Positions 10,105-17,544 of a stretch of DNA of 43,889 bases are shown piece after piece. The translations under genes were made by a program, and so were the position numbers. This stretch comes from a virus, in the IMG/VR virus record IMGVR_UViG_3300044547_000229, positions 1-43,889 of that record; one strand, written 5' to 3'. Numbering within the stretch: position 1 is the first letter of the stretch; every line of letters starts with the position of its first letter. Under the pieces are notes generated by a model, which saw only the letters and a program-made list of their open reading frames with translations, did not search any database and was not told the origin of the DNA.

Positions 10105-10737
10105 CTAAACCAGATCGTGGGTCTGCTCGTCGTTAACTGGGGTCACGTCACGGTCCTTTAGGTCTGCCATCAGGTCACGGTGGCTTACTGATGCTGTCAT
10201 AGATAGGTGTATGCTGGTGGGCTGGCCCTTCAGTGTGGATAATTTGTCCAAAGTGATTCCTATTGCTACGGGTAAAGTGCGATCATCAATGAATTCCATT
10301 GAGGATTCAGCAAGACGCTTAGTGCCTTTCCATATAGCAACCTCCATGAATCCGACAACATCTTTGCGCCACTCTTCTTCAGTCTCTGGGTAGTCGTGCG
10401 GAACCTTAACACCTCTAACATACTTGAACACTGTGCTTTCTATGAAACCAGTCTCTTTCGCTATGGTCTCAAGTGTCTTGTTGAGTATTACTCCTTCTAC
10501 AATCTTGTCTGCCTTATCTTGTGTAAGTGTTGATTTGTGATGTTGTGTTGGGTTGTGTGTCTTCTCGTAACCAAGATCACTAGCCGTCTTCAACACCTTG
10601 TCGATCATCTCTTGCTTGAACTTGCCTTTGCCATTCAAGATCTGATTAACACGCACTACATTTACGCCACAGGTCTTTGATATGGTTTCCTGTGATACAC
10701 GTCCTACTGGTATTCTGCCATCCTTCTTACCCGACAT
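10105..10737 (-). CDS. HTH DNA-binding protein, probable terminase small subunit
   Basis: I take the ATG at 10737 (MSGKKDGRIPVGRVSQETIS), giving 210 residues. The longer in-frame ORF would run deep into the upstream gene. Residues about 13-55 look like a LacI-type HTH (VSQETISKTCGVNVVRVNQI then NGKGKFKQEMIDKVLKTASD). A second HTH-like segment follows (TLETIAKETGFIESTVFKYV). The C-terminal part, with WKGTKRLAESSMEF, LPVAIGITLDKLSTLKGQPT, resembles proteins encoded just ahead of large terminases. DNA recognition for packaging is therefore the best guess, but a transcription regulator is possible. It overlaps the glycosyltransferase gene by 11 bases. Confidence 0.6.
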   Translation of the reverse strand: MSGKKDGRIPVGRVSQETISKTCGVNVVRVNQILNGKGKFKQEMIDKVLKTASDLGYEKTHNPTQHHKSTLTQDKADKIVEGVILNKTLETIAKETGFIESTVFKYVRGVKVPHDYPETEEEWRKDVVGFMEVAIWKGTKRLAESSMEFIDDRTLPVAIGITLDKLSTLKGQPTSIHLSMTASVSHRDLMADLKDRDVTPVNDEQTHDLV

Positions 10738-11542
10738 ACGGTTTAAACCCATAGGGATATTCGCCCCAGTGGTTGAGATGTTTCTTCGGCTGCATGGCAT
10801 AATGCTTCACATCGCACAGGCTCAACCTGACCGCGGCAGCATAGTCCTCGCTGAGGTACTCGTGCTGCCCTGGCAGAGTATCCATGGCGAACGGCATCCA
10901 CAGTGTCGGGAACTGGTCAACCCTCACATCCTTGCACCAGTCGATCCGATAGGGGTTTGGCACCTCTGACCCTCCGAGCGTATCAAGTGCGCTCATAAGG
11001 CAACGTCGAGGGATTGCGAGGCATCCCGATGCGAACATTCGGATCGGTACTAGCTCTGTGGCGCACTCGGCATCCGATGTCTGCATCCTTAGAGCTTTGA
11101 CGTGCTCGGTGTCGATACGCAGGGCCGGCCTTAGCGGAAGTGCTCGGCATGGGTACGGGATGCACACGGTCGCCTGGTGCTCATGGGCGAGCTCTGCCAT
11201 GCGGATAATGTCTTTCGGGTCGAACTCGATATCGTGGTCGATCTGGATCCATACGTCCTTGCCTGAGTCGAGGAACCACTTGGTAGCACGGCAACGGCTT
11301 CGGGATATCAGCGCATCCTCGCGAATGGTTCGTAGATCGGTCTGGCGATCTGATGTACTAAAGTTGGCTGTTAGTCCTACCCAGGACATAAGACAGGCTG
11401 CACTTATACCACCGTATGCATACAGGCTGACGTGTATCGAGGGCCTTGTGCCTGATGTAGTCGGCTCCTGCACCACGGCTGTAGCCTGTGGAGCGTGTAT
11501 GAACGGGTCGTTCATGTTGATTGCTGCTGTTGGATTGTTCAT
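10727..11542 (-). CDS. Glycosyltransferase-like protein (GT-A type)
   Basis: The 271-residue protein has a DxD-type metal and nucleotide-sugar motif (WIQIDHDIEF, DHD at 102-104) after a helical region with RSRCRATKWFLDSGKD, and a later acceptor-site-like region (FASGCLAIPRR, then EYLSEDYAAAVR). This pattern is typical of family 2-like glycosyltransferases in phage genomes. Its start overlaps the upstream HTH gene by ATGA, so it belongs to the replication operon. The target may be modified phage DNA, a host surface sugar or a virion protein; nothing here decides among these. Confidence 0.6.
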   Translation of the reverse strand: MNNPTAAINMNDPFIHAPQATAVVQEPTTSGTRPSIHVSLYAYGGISAACLMSWVGLTANFSTSDRQTDLRTIREDALISRSRCRATKWFLDSGKDVWIQIDHDIEFDPKDIIRMAELAHEHQATVCIPYPCRALPLRPALRIDTEHVKALRMQTSDAECATELVPIRMFASGCLAIPRRCLMSALDTLGGSEVPNPYRIDWCKDVRVDQFPTLWMPFAMDTLPGQHEYLSEDYAAAVRLSLCDVKHYAMQPKKHLNHWGEYPYGFKPYVG

Positions 11543-11883
11543 GGCTGTTTCAAATCGTGTTTGATTCTGTCGGATGCGAGTATTGCTTCGTGACCTTTGG
11601 CTAATATGTAGGTGATTGATCCTCTTGATACACCAATTGCTTTGGCGGTGTCGTCCAGTGTTAGGCCTAGCTGCCTGAGTTCGTAGGCACGCTGACAGAA
11701 CTCTGGTGTATACTGCTCCGGGTCGACGTGTATCTCTTCCTCGATGCCCGGGTCAAGCGATCCGTCGTCGTGGTATTTCTGGCTGAGTGGGTAAGACATG
11801 AGGCCCTTGTCGATGGCCCACTTGATCAGCCTAGGCGCTTCGTTCAGCAGTTTGGTGCGGTTGAGATCGTATTTGATGTTCAT
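11539..11883 (-). CDS. HTH protein, 114 residues
   Basis: I choose the ATG at 11883 (MNIKYDLNRTKLLNEAPRL), which overlaps the helicase stop (ATGA). A longer ORF exists but lies inside the helicase gene. The C-terminal half has a resolvase-type HTH: YTPEFCQRAYELRQLGLTLD followed by DTAKAIGVSRGSITYILAKG. The N-terminal half is acidic. A DNA-binding regulator is likely; the target is unknown. Confidence 0.65.
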   Translation of the reverse strand: MNIKYDLNRTKLLNEAPRLIKWAIDKGLMSYPLSQKYHDDGSLDPGIEEEIHVDPEQYTPEFCQRAYELRQLGLTLDDTAKAIGVSRGSITYILAKGHEAILASDRIKHDLKQP

Positions 11884-13178
11884 TGGAAGCTCGGTGATGG
11901 GTCTGTGAAGCGGCAGTATTGGCCTTCGTAATGGAGTTTTACATGACCGCATTCACCGTCTCGTTGTTTGGCAATAATGATGGCAGCCTCTCCTGACGGC
12001 TCGGTTCTGTCACGGTTTAGAAGCATGACCGCGTCGGCATCACGCTCCAGTTGCCCGCTATCCGCCAGGTCACTCAGCTTGGGCTGACGGCCTTTTTCCT
12101 TGTCGGATTCCCGGTTTAACTGTGCCAAGGCTAGCATGGCCACACCTGTCTGGACGGCGATTGCCTTGAGCTTGCCGGATACCTCGGCGACCTCGTAGGT
12201 GCGTTTCTCCGAGCGGTCTGCTGCCTTCACCTTCTGGATGTAGTCGACGATCACCAGGCGCACCTTGTGTTTGCGTACAGCCCTTCGGACATGGGCGGTG
12301 ATGCTAGCGATACTGTGGCTGCTGGGTCCATCGAGGAACCATAGGGGGCTGCTTGCTATCTTGGCTGAGGCAGCGGTCATGGCCCTCATGTCACCGTCGC
12401 TAAGGTCGCCAGACTTTAGGTTCTGCATCGGGATGCTTCCGATGGTGGAAACCATGCGTCGGAAGATGGCTTCTTGGGACATCTCCAGGCTGACGAATAA
12501 GGTGGGCACCTTATCCTGAATGGCTGCCTGGTAAGCAATAGCGATGGCGATGGCTGTCTTTCCGATACTTGGCCTGGCCGCAATGATGGCCATCTCTCGG
12601 AGCTGCAGGCCGTCGGTCTTGTGGTCGAGCCAATGGAAGCCTGTAGCGATACCAGATAATGAGCCCTTACGATTGAACCTGTCCTGCATTTGGTCGATGA
12701 AGTTACCGGCTACCGTCTTTGAGGTTGCGAGCATCTCCTTGGATGCCTCAATGCTAAGGCCTGCTTCGGCATTGGCGACGATTTGATCCGGTTGGAGTGT
12801 GGTTACCGCGGATTCACGTATCAGACGGTCACCGGTGTCTCGCAACTGGCGACGATGGGCCGAGTCGGTGATGCCCTTGAGGTAATACGGGAGGTTGGCC
12901 GGCGATGGGCAAATTTCCATGGCCTGATTCCAGACATCAAAAGGCATGGGCAGTAGGCCATAGGCTTTCTTCCATTCCTTACCGAGCTCGGACAACGAGG
13001 GCTGTTGGTTGGCCTGCACCATGGTGCGGATGACATCGAAGGTCTGACGCAGGTTGTCCTGGTTAATCCATTCGCTCCGTATTTCTGCTAGGGCATCGGA
13101 GCAGGTGTCGATGGTTCCTGTCAGGCAGGCTCCGATCATGCCCAGCTCGTCGTCTTTGGGGTAATAGACGTCGTTCAT
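11880..13178 (-). CDS. dnaB: Replicative DNA helicase, DnaB family
   Basis: The 432-residue protein has the DnaB two-domain layout: an N-terminal helical domain beginning PKDDELGMIGACLTG, then a RecA-like domain with Walker A ARPSIGKT at 201-208, the conserved LFVSLEMSQEAIFRRM segment, Walker B LVIVDYIQ at 308-315, and ALAQLNRESD followed by LSDLADSGQLERDADAVMLL. It would unwind the phage origin and fork as a ring hexamer. It overlaps the DUF1376 gene (ATGA), the usual arrangement of helicase and loader or initiator. No primase domain is fused. Confidence 0.92.
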   Translation of the reverse strand: MNDVYYPKDDELGMIGACLTGTIDTCSDALAEIRSEWINQDNLRQTFDVIRTMVQANQQPSLSELGKEWKKAYGLLPMPFDVWNQAMEICPSPANLPYYLKGITDSAHRRQLRDTGDRLIRESAVTTLQPDQIVANAEAGLSIEASKEMLATSKTVAGNFIDQMQDRFNRKGSLSGIATGFHWLDHKTDGLQLREMAIIAARPSIGKTAIAIAIAYQAAIQDKVPTLFVSLEMSQEAIFRRMVSTIGSIPMQNLKSGDLSDGDMRAMTAASAKIASSPLWFLDGPSSHSIASITAHVRRAVRKHKVRLVIVDYIQKVKAADRSEKRTYEVAEVSGKLKAIAVQTGVAMLALAQLNRESDKEKGRQPKLSDLADSGQLERDADAVMLLNRDRTEPSGEAAIIIAKQRDGECGHVKLHYEGQYCRFTDPSPSFQ

Positions 13179-13981
13179 AGGCTATCCCTCCAATCGAGTT
13201 CCTTCTTGGGGCTGCCTGGTGTCGAGCTGATGGTGATTCCCTGCGACTTGTATAATCCCTTCCAGCCCGAGGCTATTGAGTTCTCAACAACCGAAGGCAG
13301 TTCTGCTGGTGTGAACTCTCGGGACCACTTGGTCAGTGCTGCAGTCAGGCCAGTCTTCTTGTAGGTCTCACGCTTTTCTGCCTTGTACTGCATCCAGAGC
13401 CGGATGGCATCCAGGCAGTTCTTGGTTCGGATAAGTTCGGGCAGTTCTACACCATGGGCAATCTCCCATTCTGACTTGGGAGCCTTGGTATCTTTCTTTA
13501 TAGGAGATGGAGATGGAGAGCTATCTTCCGGCCATGCTCCGGCCATAGGTCCGGCTATGGTCTGGCTATGCTCTGGCCATGGCGCGGCCATTGGGGTCGC
13601 TATAGCAACCCCATTAGGGTCGCCATCATCTGGGCATTTTCCCCACCTTTTTGCCGCTCCACTAGTACCTGCAGCAGCTTGACGGGTCTTAAAGGATTGT
13701 TGCTCCTCTCGGACTTTCTCCAATCTTTCGTTCTTTAGTGTATGGCCATCGCATAGCCGGAACTTAGCCATGACATAGCCAACGGATGGCGACCCTATCA
13801 TTCCGGCTATCCGAGCAACACGCTCTTCGTCGTTCGGGATTCCTCCCTTCGTCCATTGGTGGCAGAGCAGTCTGATGTAGCCACCAACCTCCTCGGCGCT
13901 CATCTCTGAAGTGCCTGCCAGGAAGTCATCTGCATAGAACTGAAAGGCTGGAGCCTTTCTGGTTTTGTTTTCTTCACTCAT
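13175..13981 (-). CDS. DUF1376 (YdaU-like) replication protein, likely helicase loader or initiator
   Basis: The 268-residue protein carries a DUF1376-type domain at about residues 10-115: APAFQFYADDFLAGTSEMSA, GGYIRLLCHQWTKGGIP, then FRLCDGHTLKNERLEKVREE. A low-complexity linker (about 118-165) rich in Met, Ala, Pro, Trp and Glu follows, then a helical C-terminal domain with WMQYKAEKRETYKKTGLTAA. DUF1376 proteins are regularly encoded next to phage helicases and are thought to act in replication initiation. The linker is encoded by 11-bp DNA repeats (13528-13594), which resembles lambda O, whose gene contains the origin iterons. Confidence 0.72.
   Translation of the reverse strand: MSEENKTRKAPAFQFYADDFLAGTSEMSAEEVGGYIRLLCHQWTKGGIPNDEERVARIAGMIGSPSVGYVMAKFRLCDGHTLKNERLEKVREEQQSFKTRQAAAGTSGAAKRWGKCPDDGDPNGVAIATPMAAPWPEHSQTIAGPMAGAWPEDSSPSPSPIKKDTKAPKSEWEIAHGVELPELIRTKNCLDAIRLWMQYKAEKRETYKKTGLTAALTKWSREFTPAELPSVVENSIASGWKGLYKSQGITISSTPGSPKKELDWRDSL
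13528..13594. repeat. Six tandem 11-12 bp iteron-like repeats inside the DUF1376 gene
   Basis: Units on the plus strand are CCGGCCATGCT, CCGGCCATAGGT, CCGGCTATGGT, CTGGCTATGCT, CTGGCCATGGC and GCGGCCATTGG, with a degenerate seventh. Consensus about CYGGCYATGST. The period is 11-12 bases, close to one helical turn and not a multiple of three, so the protein sequence only repeats every third unit. That suggests the DNA pattern itself may be selected. Candidate replication-origin iterons. Confidence 0.6.
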
Positions 13982-14133
13982 AATTCAAACAGAGACCCCG
14001 TCACGCACCGTGGTAGGAACTCGCGGAGAAACGGCGCGACGTTGCACGGTACGGACGGGGAAAAGTTGGTTGAACATGGTTTCTCTTGTGGTGCCTGCGC
14101 TCGCTTCCTACGGCTCACGCTGACGGGCTCTCC
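13982..14133 (-). other. 152-bp gap between methyltransferase and DUF1376 genes
   Basis: No gene that I can support. A 30-codon ORF (13985-14077, MFNQLFPVRTVQRRAVSPRV) ends just ahead of the next start but has no clear ribosome-binding site. It could be a leader peptide or chance. Confidence 0.35.
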
Positions 14134-14815
14134 CTATAGGACAGCCTGTATTGTGTCCAGCTCTTGCATCAGGCTTCTGAAGGCTCGTTCTGCTGTTGCT
14201 GGGACAACACCGTTACCAAGGAGTCGGAGCTCATCCGTTCTATTGTCACAGGTGATGCACAGCTCGGCATAGTCCATCCCACTGGAAGGCCCATCAGGGT
14301 CTCCACCCAGCGGGGGTTGAGTTTGCCGGATGACTCCATTGCTACCTTGGTCGTCAGGAATAGTTGCTTGTTGATCCCCTGTGCCTTCTTTGTATCCGCT
14401 ATCTGCTGCCACTTCACCGGATCCGCATTCGCTCCCGGCCTGCTGTCCCCATCCGCTGATGGTGTCGGCCATGACTGCTTCACCTGCTGGTCCAGCTTGT
14501 CGATCATGCTGCCGTCCTTCTGCCGGTGCGCTCCGGTCGACACGGTGGCTGTCTGCCACGACTCTGGGCGGCTCCCATGCGTATTGCTGCTCGCCGGGAC
14601 GGCTGGGCCATGCACTGCAACCACTCCTGATAACTTGCACTTGGCTGCCACCTTCTTCATGTCCACGTTTTCCCCAGTGTCCTTGTGGTCCCTGGCTGCT
14701 GGCGTTGGCCATGACTTCACAACCACCGTCGTCAGACTCTCCTGACTGCCCTTAATGCCTCGGGAACGGTCCTGAAAGCCCTGGCGTACCTCTGAAGCCA
14801 CTGGCGACGGCCAGG
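14134..14815 (-). pseudogene. Frameshifted C-terminal part of C5 methyltransferase
   Basis: After motif VIII the gene continues in the neighbouring frame: CSSWPSPVASEVRQGFQD, SWPTPAARDHK, SWPTPSADGDS and LNPRWVETLMGLPVGWT are typical of the target-recognition half of phage C5 methyltransferases. Near 14270-14280 the family resemblance moves back to the first frame, which gives ELRLLGNGVVPATAERAF, the conserved motif X. Two compensating shifts, one near 14800-14815 and one near 14275, are therefore needed for a full enzyme. Either the gene is decayed, or sequencing indels, or recoding, are involved. Confidence 0.65.
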
Positions 14816-15315
14816 ATGAACACCCGCTTGCGCTGGTGCGGCGCTCCGCATTCAGACGCTGAGAATATGCCCCACGTCGTTCGATAACCCATTCCTGCCA
14901 GGTCTTCGATGACGTCGGACAGCCCCAGGCTGATATGTCCTTCGACGTTTTCAAAGAAGCAGCACTTGGGTTTGAGAAGTCGAATGCCATCTGCAATAAA
15001 CGGCCAAAGATGCCGCGGGTCTTGCTTGCCTTTACGCTGCCCTGCTGCACTGAAGGGCTGGCATGGGTAGCCCCCAGTGAGGATGTCCACTCGGTCGCGA
15101 AACGCTGCCCAAGGGAAGGTCTTAAGATCCGGCCAGATAGGTGCCGGGTCCATGAGTCCCGCTTCCATTTTGCTGACCAGATTCGCAATTGCGAAGGCTT
15201 CGATCTCACAAAGAGCGATTGTGCGCAGACTTGGGATTGCTCGTTTGAGTCCAAGCTCAATGCCTCCGTATCCAGCGCACAGGCCAATGTGTGTAACTGC
15301 CGGGGTAGAATCCAT
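14752..15315 (-). CDS. C5 cytosine DNA methyltransferase, catalytic N-terminal part
   Basis: The 187-residue ORF holds motif I (HIGLCAGYGGIELGL, 9-23), motif IV with the catalytic Cys85 (GGYPCQPFS, 81-89), motif VI (FFENVEGH, 120-127) and motif VIII (QRKRVFILA, 161-169). It then runs into a frame that stops at 14754-14752. An intact enzyme needs the target-recognition region and motif X, which lie downstream in other frames. The intact family methylates C5 of cytosine in a short site, usually to protect phage DNA from restriction. As read, this product should be inactive alone. Confidence 0.8.
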   Translation of the reverse strand: MDSTPAVTHIGLCAGYGGIELGLKRAIPSLRTIALCEIEAFAIANLVSKMEAGLMDPAPIWPDLKTFPWAAFRDRVDILTGGYPCQPFSAAGQRKGKQDPRHLWPFIADGIRLLKPKCCFFENVEGHISLGLSDVIEDLAGMGYRTTWGIFSASECGAPHQRKRVFILAVASGFRGTPGLSGPFPRH

Positions 15316-15329
15316 GTCATGGTTGCTCC

Positions 15330-15992
15330 TCAGTAAGCCGGCATCAGCACATCAGCCACTTTTTGGGTCAACTCGACATCACGCAGGCAGTAGTTGATCG
15401 CCGCCTCGCGGTCAGTCTTGAACAGCTCGGAGAACATGGCCCCATTGCCTGCCTTCTCGCCGAGCCCCAGATGCCTTGAGATCGCTCCGAGGCTCCCATG
15501 TGCCCTACTGTCGCCCAACTGCCAAACCTCGCGCAGGTCGACCACCAGGTCGCTCCAGTACCTGCCCTGCCGTATCCAGTAGGGTGGGGTGATGCGGTGT
15601 TTCCATGACCGTTTAATCAGGAACGGCAAGTCGAACGGTTTAACATTGAAACCGATCATCGTAGGCTGGCGCTCCATGCTGGTGATGAGCTTCCACCATT
15701 GCTTGAGCATCTCGGCCTCACCATCTGCATCACAGCACAGCACCGATGGTGTCTCGTGCTCGATACGGTAGCCGATGCACAGGATCTGGCCCGACAATGC
15801 ATCCAGGGCAGCGCCGCGGATGTAGTCGGACACGTGCGTCTCTTCTGCACGCTGGATCTTTTCGGCGATCAAGTCCGGGTTCTTGGTGTTGCCGAGCTTT
15901 ACGTCGGAGGCAACGAACGGTGGGATGACCAATTCGCTCAAGGGCATCGGCCCTGTTTCGATGTCGAAGTAGATTTTATGGTTGGCTGGCAT
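15330..15992 (-). CDS. DEDD-type 3'-5' exonuclease, PolB proofreading-like
   Basis: The 220-residue protein has the three exonuclease motifs of DnaQ-like DEDDy enzymes: Exo I YFDIETG (Asp10, Glu12), Exo II IGFNVKPFDLPFL near residue 115, and Exo III YCLRDVELT near residue 205. No polymerase domain is attached. The length fits predicted PolB-like stand-alone exonucleases of phages. A part in DNA repair, recombination or end processing is likely. It is 14 bases from the methyltransferase and overlaps the upstream HTH gene by 17 bases. Confidence 0.8.
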   Translation of the reverse strand: MPANHKIYFDIETGPMPLSELVIPPFVASDVKLGNTKNPDLIAEKIQRAEETHVSDYIRGAALDALSGQILCIGYRIEHETPSVLCCDADGEAEMLKQWWKLITSMERQPTMIGFNVKPFDLPFLIKRSWKHRITPPYWIRQGRYWSDLVVDLREVWQLGDSRAHGSLGAISRHLGLGEKAGNGAMFSELFKTDREAAINYCLRDVELTQKVADVLMPAY

Positions 15993-16367: not shown

Positions 16368-16766
16368 TTAGATGATCTTGCCGCAGTGGGGGCAGGTCTT
16401 GCCCAGTGTTGGCCTGGTCTCCAGAGGGACAACCTCCAGCCATTCGCAAATTTCGATGTAGCTCTTACGTCCGAAAGACCATACGCATCCTGGGAACAGG
16501 TGGCCGCTCTGATACAAATCCAAAGCGTGCTCCTTGCTCTTGATGCCTAGGTTCTCCAGCACCCGGGCGGCCCGTACGCTCAATGGGAAGCCCCAGAGGC
16601 TCAGGATTCCCTCCATCTGCTTGGCAGACTTGACGATCTGATGGATGCGTTGCCGGGTTAGGTTCAGTTCCTTCCCAATCTCGTCCATGGTGCGCCCTTC
16701 GGCTCGCATTTGAACCACGCCTGGCACCAGGTGGGCGACCTTGGCGTATTGCTTGCGTGTTTTCAT
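16368..16766 (-). CDS. Regulator with sigma region 4-like HTH and alpha-CTD-like domain
   Basis: The 132-residue protein has three parts. Residues 23-50 (EGRTMDEIGKELNLTRQRI then HQIVKSAK) read like sigma-70 region 4.2 (consensus T-x-E-E-[IV]-G-x-x-x-x-[VL]-T-R-E-R-[IV]-R-Q-I). Residues 61-111 (PLSVRAARVLENLGI, FGRKSYIEICEWL) follow the RNA polymerase alpha C-terminal domain: Arg65 aligns with E. coli alpha Arg265 and GRKS with GKKS. The end has TCPHCGK (125-128), a possible metal knuckle. Its start shares one base with the stop of the SSB-like gene. I infer control of transcription, perhaps by contacting RNA polymerase or promoters. Similarity was judged by eye. Confidence 0.6.
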   Translation of the reverse strand: MKTRKQYAKVAHLVPGVVQMRAEGRTMDEIGKELNLTRQRIHQIVKSAKQMEGILSLWGFPLSVRAARVLENLGIKSKEHALDLYQSGHLFPGCVWSFGRKSYIEICEWLEVVPLETRPTLGKTCPHCGKII

Positions 16767-17500
16767 CAGAAGGGCACGTCATCGAAGTCCGGTTGATCCT
16801 TGGCATCAATCTCCCGCAGGCGCTGGATGACCGCGGCGATGAGTTGTTTGTCCTCCGGTGTCTTGCCGGCGCTGATTTGAGCCTTAGGCAGCCAGTGCTC
16901 GCCCAGGCCTTTGACCGCAGAGTCGGCCAGCTCGGAGAGCGGTGTGCCCTTGAACTTGCCCACGTGAACCTTGGTGCTGCCCAGGTCAACTGGTCGAGGT
17001 GTCGTACCATCCGGGACCACGGTCTTCACCTGGTCGTCCTTGGCTGGGCGGTCCTGCATCCGTACCCACAGGCCCGAGGGCTGCAACGGTTCGCCATGTT
17101 TGTGCGGCATCATCAACTTGATGTTGGCGTAGGTCTTGGTGCCGTCCTGTGACTGCTCATGGGCGATGATGAGCGTCACTGGCTTACCGATGAGCGACTC
17201 AAGGTCGAGGCCGTTGTTCTCGGCATCGGTCAATTTCCTGCCAAACCAGTCCTTGAGCACCTTGGTCAGGGCTGCCTTCTCATGTAGGCTCGGGACCAGG
17301 GGCTTGCTGAATACCACCCAGGGCTGCACCGGGTCGCGTGATCCGTCAATGAGGTCTAGCTCAAAGGCGAACTTGAACTTCTTCTTAACACCGTACTCGG
17401 TCTCGTACTCCTTCAACGGAGTCACATCTACGCACACTGCTCGTCCCGAGAACTCGGGACATGGCGCGAACTCTTTACCGCCTGCTGCTTTAATGATCAT
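16766..17500 (-). CDS. Single-stranded DNA-binding protein-like
   Basis: The 244-residue protein begins MIIKAAGGKEFAPCPEFSGR and continues with strands typical of an OB-fold (VCVDVTPLKEYETEYG, KFKFAFELDLID, KPVTLIIAHEQSQDGTKTYA). It ends DFDDVPF, nearly the acidic tail of bacterial SSB (DFDDDIPF), which recruits replication partners. A Pro-rich linker and a helical segment (HVGKFKGTPLSELADSA) precede the tail, so it is longer than E. coli SSB. It probably coats single-stranded DNA during helicase-driven replication. An unusual AT-repeat leader precedes the start. Confidence 0.7.
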   Translation of the reverse strand: MIIKAAGGKEFAPCPEFSGRAVCVDVTPLKEYETEYGVKKKFKFAFELDLIDGSRDPVQPWVVFSKPLVPSLHEKAALTKVLKDWFGRKLTDAENNGLDLESLIGKPVTLIIAHEQSQDGTKTYANIKLMMPHKHGEPLQPSGLWVRMQDRPAKDDQVKTVVPDGTTPRPVDLGSTKVHVGKFKGTPLSELADSAVKGLGEHWLPKAQISAGKTPEDKQLIAAVIQRLREIDAKDQPDFDDVPF

Positions 17501-17515
17501 GTCTTACGTTTTGTT

Positions 17516-17544
17516 GTTATTTATTGGTTATTTATTTGTTATTT
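17516..17544 (-). promoter_or_regulatory. AT-rich 11-bp tandem repeat leader of the SSB-like gene
   Basis: On the plus strand GTTATTTATT occurs at 17516-17525 and 17527-17536, with GTTATTT at 17538-17544. As mRNA the leader is made of AAUAAAUAAC units and contains no G until about ten bases before the AUG, so it should be unstructured. Such a site just upstream of a single-stranded nucleic acid-binding protein resembles the unstructured operator through which T4 gp32 represses its own translation. Its 5' end overlaps the stop of the upstream gene. Confidence 0.5.

Follow-up and report, generated by a model that had tools for sequence, protein, structure and literature searches.

Paired, helically phased repeat arrays suggest a replication origin within the coding sequence of phage DUF1376 genes

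The DUF1376 gene in the 43,889-bp stretch of viral DNA analyzed here (hereafter the window) probably carries the replication origin of the phage inside its own coding sequence, where it would be bound by the DUF1376 domain of the encoded protein while the C-terminus of the same protein would bring in the helicase. Two arrays of short sites, their spacing and their joint change in relatives were computed from the sequences, as were an unstable stretch beside one array, a neighboring helicase gene and the independent swapping of C-terminal domains. From these features we infer binding of DNA by DUF1376, melting, recruitment of the helicase and origin activity. In the scenario that we favor, which is modeled on other initiators with in-gene sites, the N-terminal winged helix of DUF1376 would bind short sites (ATRGC in this phage) that form two arrays with a spacing of one helical turn, and the bound protein would align on one face of the DNA and strain or wrap the region. 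This would open the unstable DNA beside array A, and an exchangeable C-terminal domain would bring the phage DnaB helicase, which is the product of the next gene, or a loader in other phages. The initial annotation had put forward a candidate origin with DUF1376 as its initiator, and this idea is upheld here by comparative evidence drawn from sequence only. The features discussed below are the following, in window coordinates.

13175..13981, minus strand: DUF1376 gene, proposed initiator, 268 aa with an N-terminal DUF1376 domain, a low-complexity linker and a C-terminal domain
13519..13591, minus strand: array A core, seven ATRGC sites in steps of 11, 11, 11, 12, 11 and 11 bp
13592..13637, minus strand: array A degenerate extension (ATAGCG, ATGGGG, ATGGCG, ATGCCC) in 11/12-bp steps, identified by eye
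13742..13791, plus strand: array B (ATGGCC, ATAGCC, TTAGCC, ATAGCC, ATGGCG) in steps of exactly 11 bp
13488..13528: least stable 40 bp by nearest-neighbor energies, adjoining array A, proposed unwinding element
13733..13897, minus strand: codons of the predicted winged helix, aa 29-83 (AlphaFold2)
13769..13783, minus strand: codons of the third helix, aa 67-71, inside array B (AlphaFold2 and chain search)
11880..13178, minus strand: DnaB-like replicative helicase, next gene downstream of DUF1376 (PF03796, E 8.3e-75)
10105-10800: HTH_3-like gene (Pfam)
16368-16766: sigma-70 region 4-like gene (Pfam)

Array A is located in the codons of the linker, with the minus-strand 5' ends of its core ATRGC sites at 13591, 13580, 13569, 13558, 13546, 13535 and 13524, and with weaker sites at 13603, 13614, 13626 and 13637, of which those at 13603 and 13626 were also part of the computed ATRGC chain. 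Array B coincides with the codons for residues 64-80, which belong to the DUF1376 domain and not to the linker, and its sites start at 13742, 13753, 13764 (TTAGCC), 13775 and 13786. The sites of array A are on the minus strand and those of array B on the plus strand, so that array B is inverted relative to array A, at a distance of 150 bp. The exact pattern ATRGCC-N5-ATRGCC occurs five times in the 43,889-bp record, each time inside the DUF1376 gene (four on the minus strand within 13530-13591 and one on the plus strand at 13742). Allowing for up to two mismatches, 25 two-unit matches were found in the window, the exact ones being confined to this gene. Likewise, a search of both strands of the whole window for ATRGC sites stepping 11 or 12 bp, with skips allowed, recovered chains of three or more sites only at arrays A and B across 43.9 kb, and such chains were present in none of 200 first-order resamples of the window.

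The initial annotation had reported an 11-bp repeat within the DUF1376 gene, and both the tandem array identified by TRF at 13527-13581 and the counts of exact units confirm its coordinates. The core array and the 11-bp units are thus real, but the steps of array A mix 11 and 12 bp, and the array is larger than was reported: the degenerate extension to about 13637, the inverted array B and the adjoining unstable stretch had all been overlooked.

The relatives of the window gene offer a view of how the two arrays change over time. We scored the site sequence separately in A and B in 72 dereplicated genes (ORFs under 450 nt removed first), and the two arrays agreed in all 72, of which 24 were of the ATRGC type, 20 of the CAACC type and 28 of the TGCCA type; these types are essentially clades and the counts are of related sequences, so that the 72 agreements represent far fewer than 72 independent events and site type has switched independently only a small number of times. 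In the TGCCA type, A and B run in the same direction, unlike the inverted layout, and ATGCCAACGCATTGCCA is translated in two different frames, as part of GMPTHCQ in B and of DANALPE in A. Furthermore, the leucine codon of the KFxL motif is CTA in all 21 ATRGC-type genes that contain KFxL and TTG in all 11 such genes of the CAACC type, CTA and TTG representing 20% and 22% of the leucine codons in those two sets, respectively. The sixth base of the site covaries between A and B in the ATRGC type (Spearman rho 0.63, n=24). Three different sites, each of them present in both arrays, would be hard to explain without a common reader.

Among these relatives, both the linker residues and the site sequence vary, while the 11/12-bp step and the pairing of A with B persist. 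It had been suggested beforehand that relatives should be compared for a DNA repeat that is kept while the linker changes, and this is what was found for the period. Linker amino acids that are kept while the DNA period is scrambled, which had been named as the pattern that would speak against an origin, were not seen; the relatives show the reverse.

Next to array A, the stretch at 13488-13528 is the weakest 40 bp of the region 12501-14500, narrowly ahead of 13955-13995 at the start of the gene. It contains 6-bp repeats at 13503-13519, and repeats with short periods of 5 to 9 bp peak at its position. The location is shared by other members of the family: measured from the domain start, the weakest 40 bp of the gene begins at 350-450 nt in 31 of the 39 close genes and in 60 of the 79 distant genes, as compared to 3.2 and 22.0 expected from synonymous shuffles. 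Taken together, 91 of 118 DUF1376 genes have such a stretch after array A. A stretch of TCTCCA/TCTCCT, which codes for SPSPSP and corresponds to 13503-13519 in the window, comes after array A in all three site types, and the DNA before it differs between them. This stretch may be part of the unstable element and may also serve as the joint for swaps of N- and C-terminal modules.

The gene directly downstream in the window codes for the DnaB homolog. By a homology test, a DnaB homolog was found directly downstream of the DUF1376 gene in 39/39 close genes and 10/78 distant genes, and the annotation of relatives together with homology indicates that DUF1376 genes often have a helicase or loader gene as neighbor. 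Scoring the following ORF by a crude Walker-A test (23/117) was misleading, as the window DnaB itself reads ARPSIGKT at this motif, and was dropped. The analysis of GC skew that had been recommended by the initial annotation gave no support, as there was no clean switch at the locus. Genes for a C-5 cytosine methylase (14752-15315) and a PolB-type 3'-5' exonuclease (15330-15992) were identified by Pfam in the region that also holds the helicase and DUF1376 genes, and an AT-rich 11-bp tandem repeat, GTTATTTATTG, is present in 2.6 copies at 17516-17544, a short way beyond the 5' end of gene 16766-17500.

We also considered the possibility that the arrays are operator sites, through which DUF1376 or some other regulator would control the transcription of the DUF1376 gene itself and of dnaB, or that they serve in partition or packaging. 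Helically phased inverted arrays would suit an operator or a nucleoprotein switch too, and the HTH_3-like and sigma-70 region 4-like genes are located nearby. However, the arrays sit some 190 to 460 nt into the DUF1376 gene, counted from its start codon, the site type goes with the DUF1376 domain, the unstable stretch adjoins the array and helicase or loader genes are often adjacent, all of which makes a regulatory, partition or packaging role unlikely as the explanation of the arrays.

To distinguish repetition of the DNA from repetition of the peptide, synonymous-codon shuffles of each gene, with the protein kept fixed, were used as the null model, with significance at p<0.05. In a set of 41 dereplicated genes, drawn from 80 loci plus the window, self-similarity exceeded that of the shuffles at lag 11 in 32 genes, as compared to 0 at lag 10, 1 at lag 13, 10 at lag 12 and 16 at lag 23. 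The excess at lag 11 implies a repeat signal at the DNA level that is centered on 11, whereas lag 12 was not used alone as evidence because it is a multiple of three. The initial argument that a period of this kind cannot result from repetition in the protein is sound.

Lag 11 exceeded the shuffles in 53 of 72 genes of the window clade, in 10 of 24 named distant genes (a chosen and not random subset of the 60 listed among 80 matching phage records) and in 6 of 96 control genes (picked randomly from 130 unrelated genes at the same loci). A test for motifs shared between A and B was positive in 67, 7 and 8 genes of these three sets, respectively. In a wider set of 118 representatives, lag 11 was above the shuffles in 76 genes (26 of 39 close and 50 of 79 distant ones, loci L086, L214, L254 and L255 being counted as distant); ORFs under 540 nt had been removed, a limit below which Baldr (390 nt) and ppBeUSDA76-2 (483 nt) fall. 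Among the 79 distant genes, 29 gave no lag-11 signal and 39 no sharing between A and B, and lag 7 was above the shuffles in 21. Locus L086 was added by a scan of genome contigs, and a phylum-wide search that started from its genome identified DUF1376 in 11 of 387 genomes, 7 of them over the cut-off.

These comparisons also bear on the idea that the arrays arose by neutral tandem duplication in a low-complexity linker that tolerates it, the DNA sites having no role. The linker is indeed repetitive and variable in length, and several relatives have protein repeats with 12-nt units, such as DPNGDPNG and ATPMATPMA. Yet lag 11 is out of frame and exceeds the synonymous shuffles, array B is located in the structured domain and not in the linker, and A and B carry the same changing site in different reading frames and, in two of the types, on opposite strands. 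We consider neutral duplication highly unlikely for these reasons.

The in-gene origin hypothesis assigns binding to the N-terminal domain, and here the C-terminal domains are informative. When these were clustered at 90% identity or more, 13 of 15 clusters were found to hold two or three site types, and the C-terminus of the window protein is 100% identical over 108 aa to that of a relative of the CAACC type (L025) from which it differs in both N-terminal type and site. Since C-terminal domains thus cross site types, the sites should be read by the N-terminal domain, with which the binding type goes, and the C-terminus should be a separate module. The O-like family phrog_678 ("replication initiation O-like") is matched by 19 of 73 aligned members, and residues 173-285 of YdaU are common to the replication proteins of Gifsy-1/2 and SPN3UB, among the matches listed. 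The two Rac-type ydaU genes, from Escherichia phage Rac-SA53 (L292) and the Rac prophage of K-12 (L257), have the DUF1376 domain in common and differ in their C-termini, which is a DnaT domain (PF17948) in the Rac-SA53 protein and an O-like domain in K-12 YdaU.

That the C-terminal modules swap freely at the linker might suggest that the repeats are recombination joints for the exchange of N- and C-terminal modules, but joints need common DNA and the arrays differ between the swapped types, the common DNA being instead the TCTCCA/TCTCCT stretch after array A; since array B would also be left unexplained, such a role is extremely unlikely. It is just as improbable that DUF1376 binds the arrays while the working origin is elsewhere, for example at the AT-rich tandem repeat outside gene 16766-17500, which is small and has neither paired arrays nor a helicase gene beside it.

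Residues 13-88 of the window protein match DUF1376 (PF07120, E 2.2e-10, 41.2 bits against a curated cut-off of 30.1), the only Pfam domain found at E up to 1, with no match to Phage_rep_O or PF06970. The protein also matches PHROG families of "primosomal protein," its linker is rich in Pro, Ala and Ser, and its C-terminus (residues 193-250) matches only the unnamed phrog_18589. An AlphaFold2 run on an alignment of 73 sequences (A2) gave block-mean pLDDT values of 88-95 for residues 21-100, with helices at 29-45, 52-59 and 67-71, strands at 75-77 and 81-83 and then a long helix at 85-114; a model from the single sequence was unusable (mean pLDDT 43). The order of the elements predicts a winged helix, and from the usual layout of this fold the third helix, whose codons are inside array B, is a candidate recognition helix.

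Comparisons with known structures support a winged helix of no specific family. A Foldseek search against the PDB gave nothing at E 0.001 or better (best E 0.39), and the predicted DNA binding thus rests on a generic winged helix. VIA-align against the PDB gave Z scores of at most 6.0, for transcription regulators, general transcription factors, ORC and plasmid initiators. The latter (4pql, Z 5.0; 4pt7, 4.8; 4pta, 4.5; 5kbj, 4.4) score like generic transcription regulators, and the absence of Phage_rep_O and other RepA_N structures from this list carries no evidential weight. A sequence search against solved structures returned nothing relevant, with one unrelated match at E 0.22. Hits in BFVD were mostly to DUF1376 or uncharacterized phage proteins, some of which are named replication protein or Lin1244/Lin1753-like.

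Arrays are also found outside the close relatives. The DUF1376 gene of Pseudomonas phage UFJF_PfDIW6 has CGTTGAAC-like sites in both A and B (p 0.004 for lag 11 and 0.01 for A/B sharing), and arrays were recognized by eye and by test in Bordetella phage IFTN2, phage cta1H496 and the Leptolyngbya cyanophage Lbo-JY16. The lag and A/B tests gave no convincing signal in RHph_TM3_3_3, HTVC112P, Octadecabacter DB virus 2 and MT837034. In cta1H496, P19250A, Mcat18 and Vibrio 1.184.A (L278, L283, L284 and L288), the linker contains 7-bp repeats of the AACCATA kind that code for NHKPITTN-like peptides, and in several of these phages the repeats come after the 11-bp sites; they are possibly a melting or helicase-loading element. 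In two Rhizobium phages (L261 and L279), the gene after DUF1376 carries the annotation of a DnaA-like initiator.

In E. coli K-12, ydaU is a DUF1376 gene that adjoins ydaV. It occupies 1421119-1421976 in MG1655, with its candidate sites at 1421512-1421590. Its linker contains GTTCAAAC/GTTTGAAC-like sites at nt 394, 427, 439, 450 and 463 (spanning nt 394-470), and its periodicity is significant at lag 23 (p 0.004) and lag 12 (p 0.032); lag 11 (p 0.092) and A/B sharing (p 0.43) were not significant. A passage in PMC3945230 refers to oriJ as an active origin of Rac, and oriJ also appears in a reference entry of PMC11014345. No source found in the PMC literature places oriJ within ydaU, older work on oriJ having appeared in subscription journals. 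Rac ydaU is a possible laboratory case, oriJ being a known origin of this prophage.

A broader hypothesis is that DUF1376 domains, as a widespread family, bind origins that reside in their own genes. The binding sites would then include the codons for the recognition helix and the wing; specificity and site, tied to a single piece of sequence, would evolve jointly and be transferred as one cassette to any C-terminus that recruits a helicase, and oriJ would be located inside ydaU. We advance this tentatively, with slightly more doubt than confidence. In-gene origins are already known; as far as our searches show, what is new in the PMC literature searched is DUF1376 as an origin-binding domain, the second array in the codons of the domain and the concerted change of both arrays. 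None of the PMC passages found gives a function or an origin for DUF1376. Our findings would provide a function and a mechanism for a so far uncharacterized domain that many phages and prophages encode, and would point to candidate origins in phages that lack a mapped one. A single stretch of DNA is predicted to hold both the code for a protein and two binding arrays, and as otherwise close relatives differ in their sites, with at least three diverged sequences, the co-evolution of initiator and origin is directly testable.

The gene O of lambda is the classic case of an in-gene origin. It has repeated sites for the initiator within its own gene, in units of about 20 bp, an unstable stretch beside them and a helicase-loading function adjacent, and the O protein has an N-terminal binding domain and a separate C-terminus. 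The DUF1376 gene is similar in having repeated sites within the gene, an adjacent unstable stretch, the helicase gene next door and separate N- and C-terminal domains, and some DUF1376 proteins have a C-terminal domain in common with O-like proteins. A passage in PMC6022878 likewise places the lambda ori within gene O. Unlike lambda O, however, the window protein matches only DUF1376 and not Phage_rep_O in Pfam, its C-terminus matches only the unnamed PHROG 18589, the sites are spaced by 11/12 bp instead of about 20 bp, and a second array is contained within the codons of the binding domain.

The plasmid initiators of the RepA_N type provide another comparison. As described in PMC5703833, the pSK41 initiator uses its N-terminal winged helix to bind four Rep boxes in the middle of rep, can do without the linker that the ori encodes and has its C-terminal domain as a module of its own; in pPR9, according to the same source, the N-terminal domain has been swapped together with the origin. 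Array A has a similar central position in the DUF1376 gene, in the codons of the linker, and plasmid initiators (4pql, 4pt7, 4pta and 5kbj) are among the structural alignments, with Z scores of 4.4 to 5.0 that are in the generic winged-helix range. In contrast to the RepA_N genes, the window protein has no match to PF06970 at E up to 1, and DUF1376 genes have the 11/12-bp phasing and the second array in the codons of the domain. In a passage of PMC7145576, 4PT7 and 4PTA are identified as plasmid RepA proteins and the repeats of the V. cholerae PLE are located in a non-coding region, whereas the arrays of DUF1376 are within coding sequence. The closest documented parallel to the putative DUF1376 origin is pSK41, and our best reading is that the DUF1376 system works like the lambda O and RepA_N origins while being, by domain, a member of neither.
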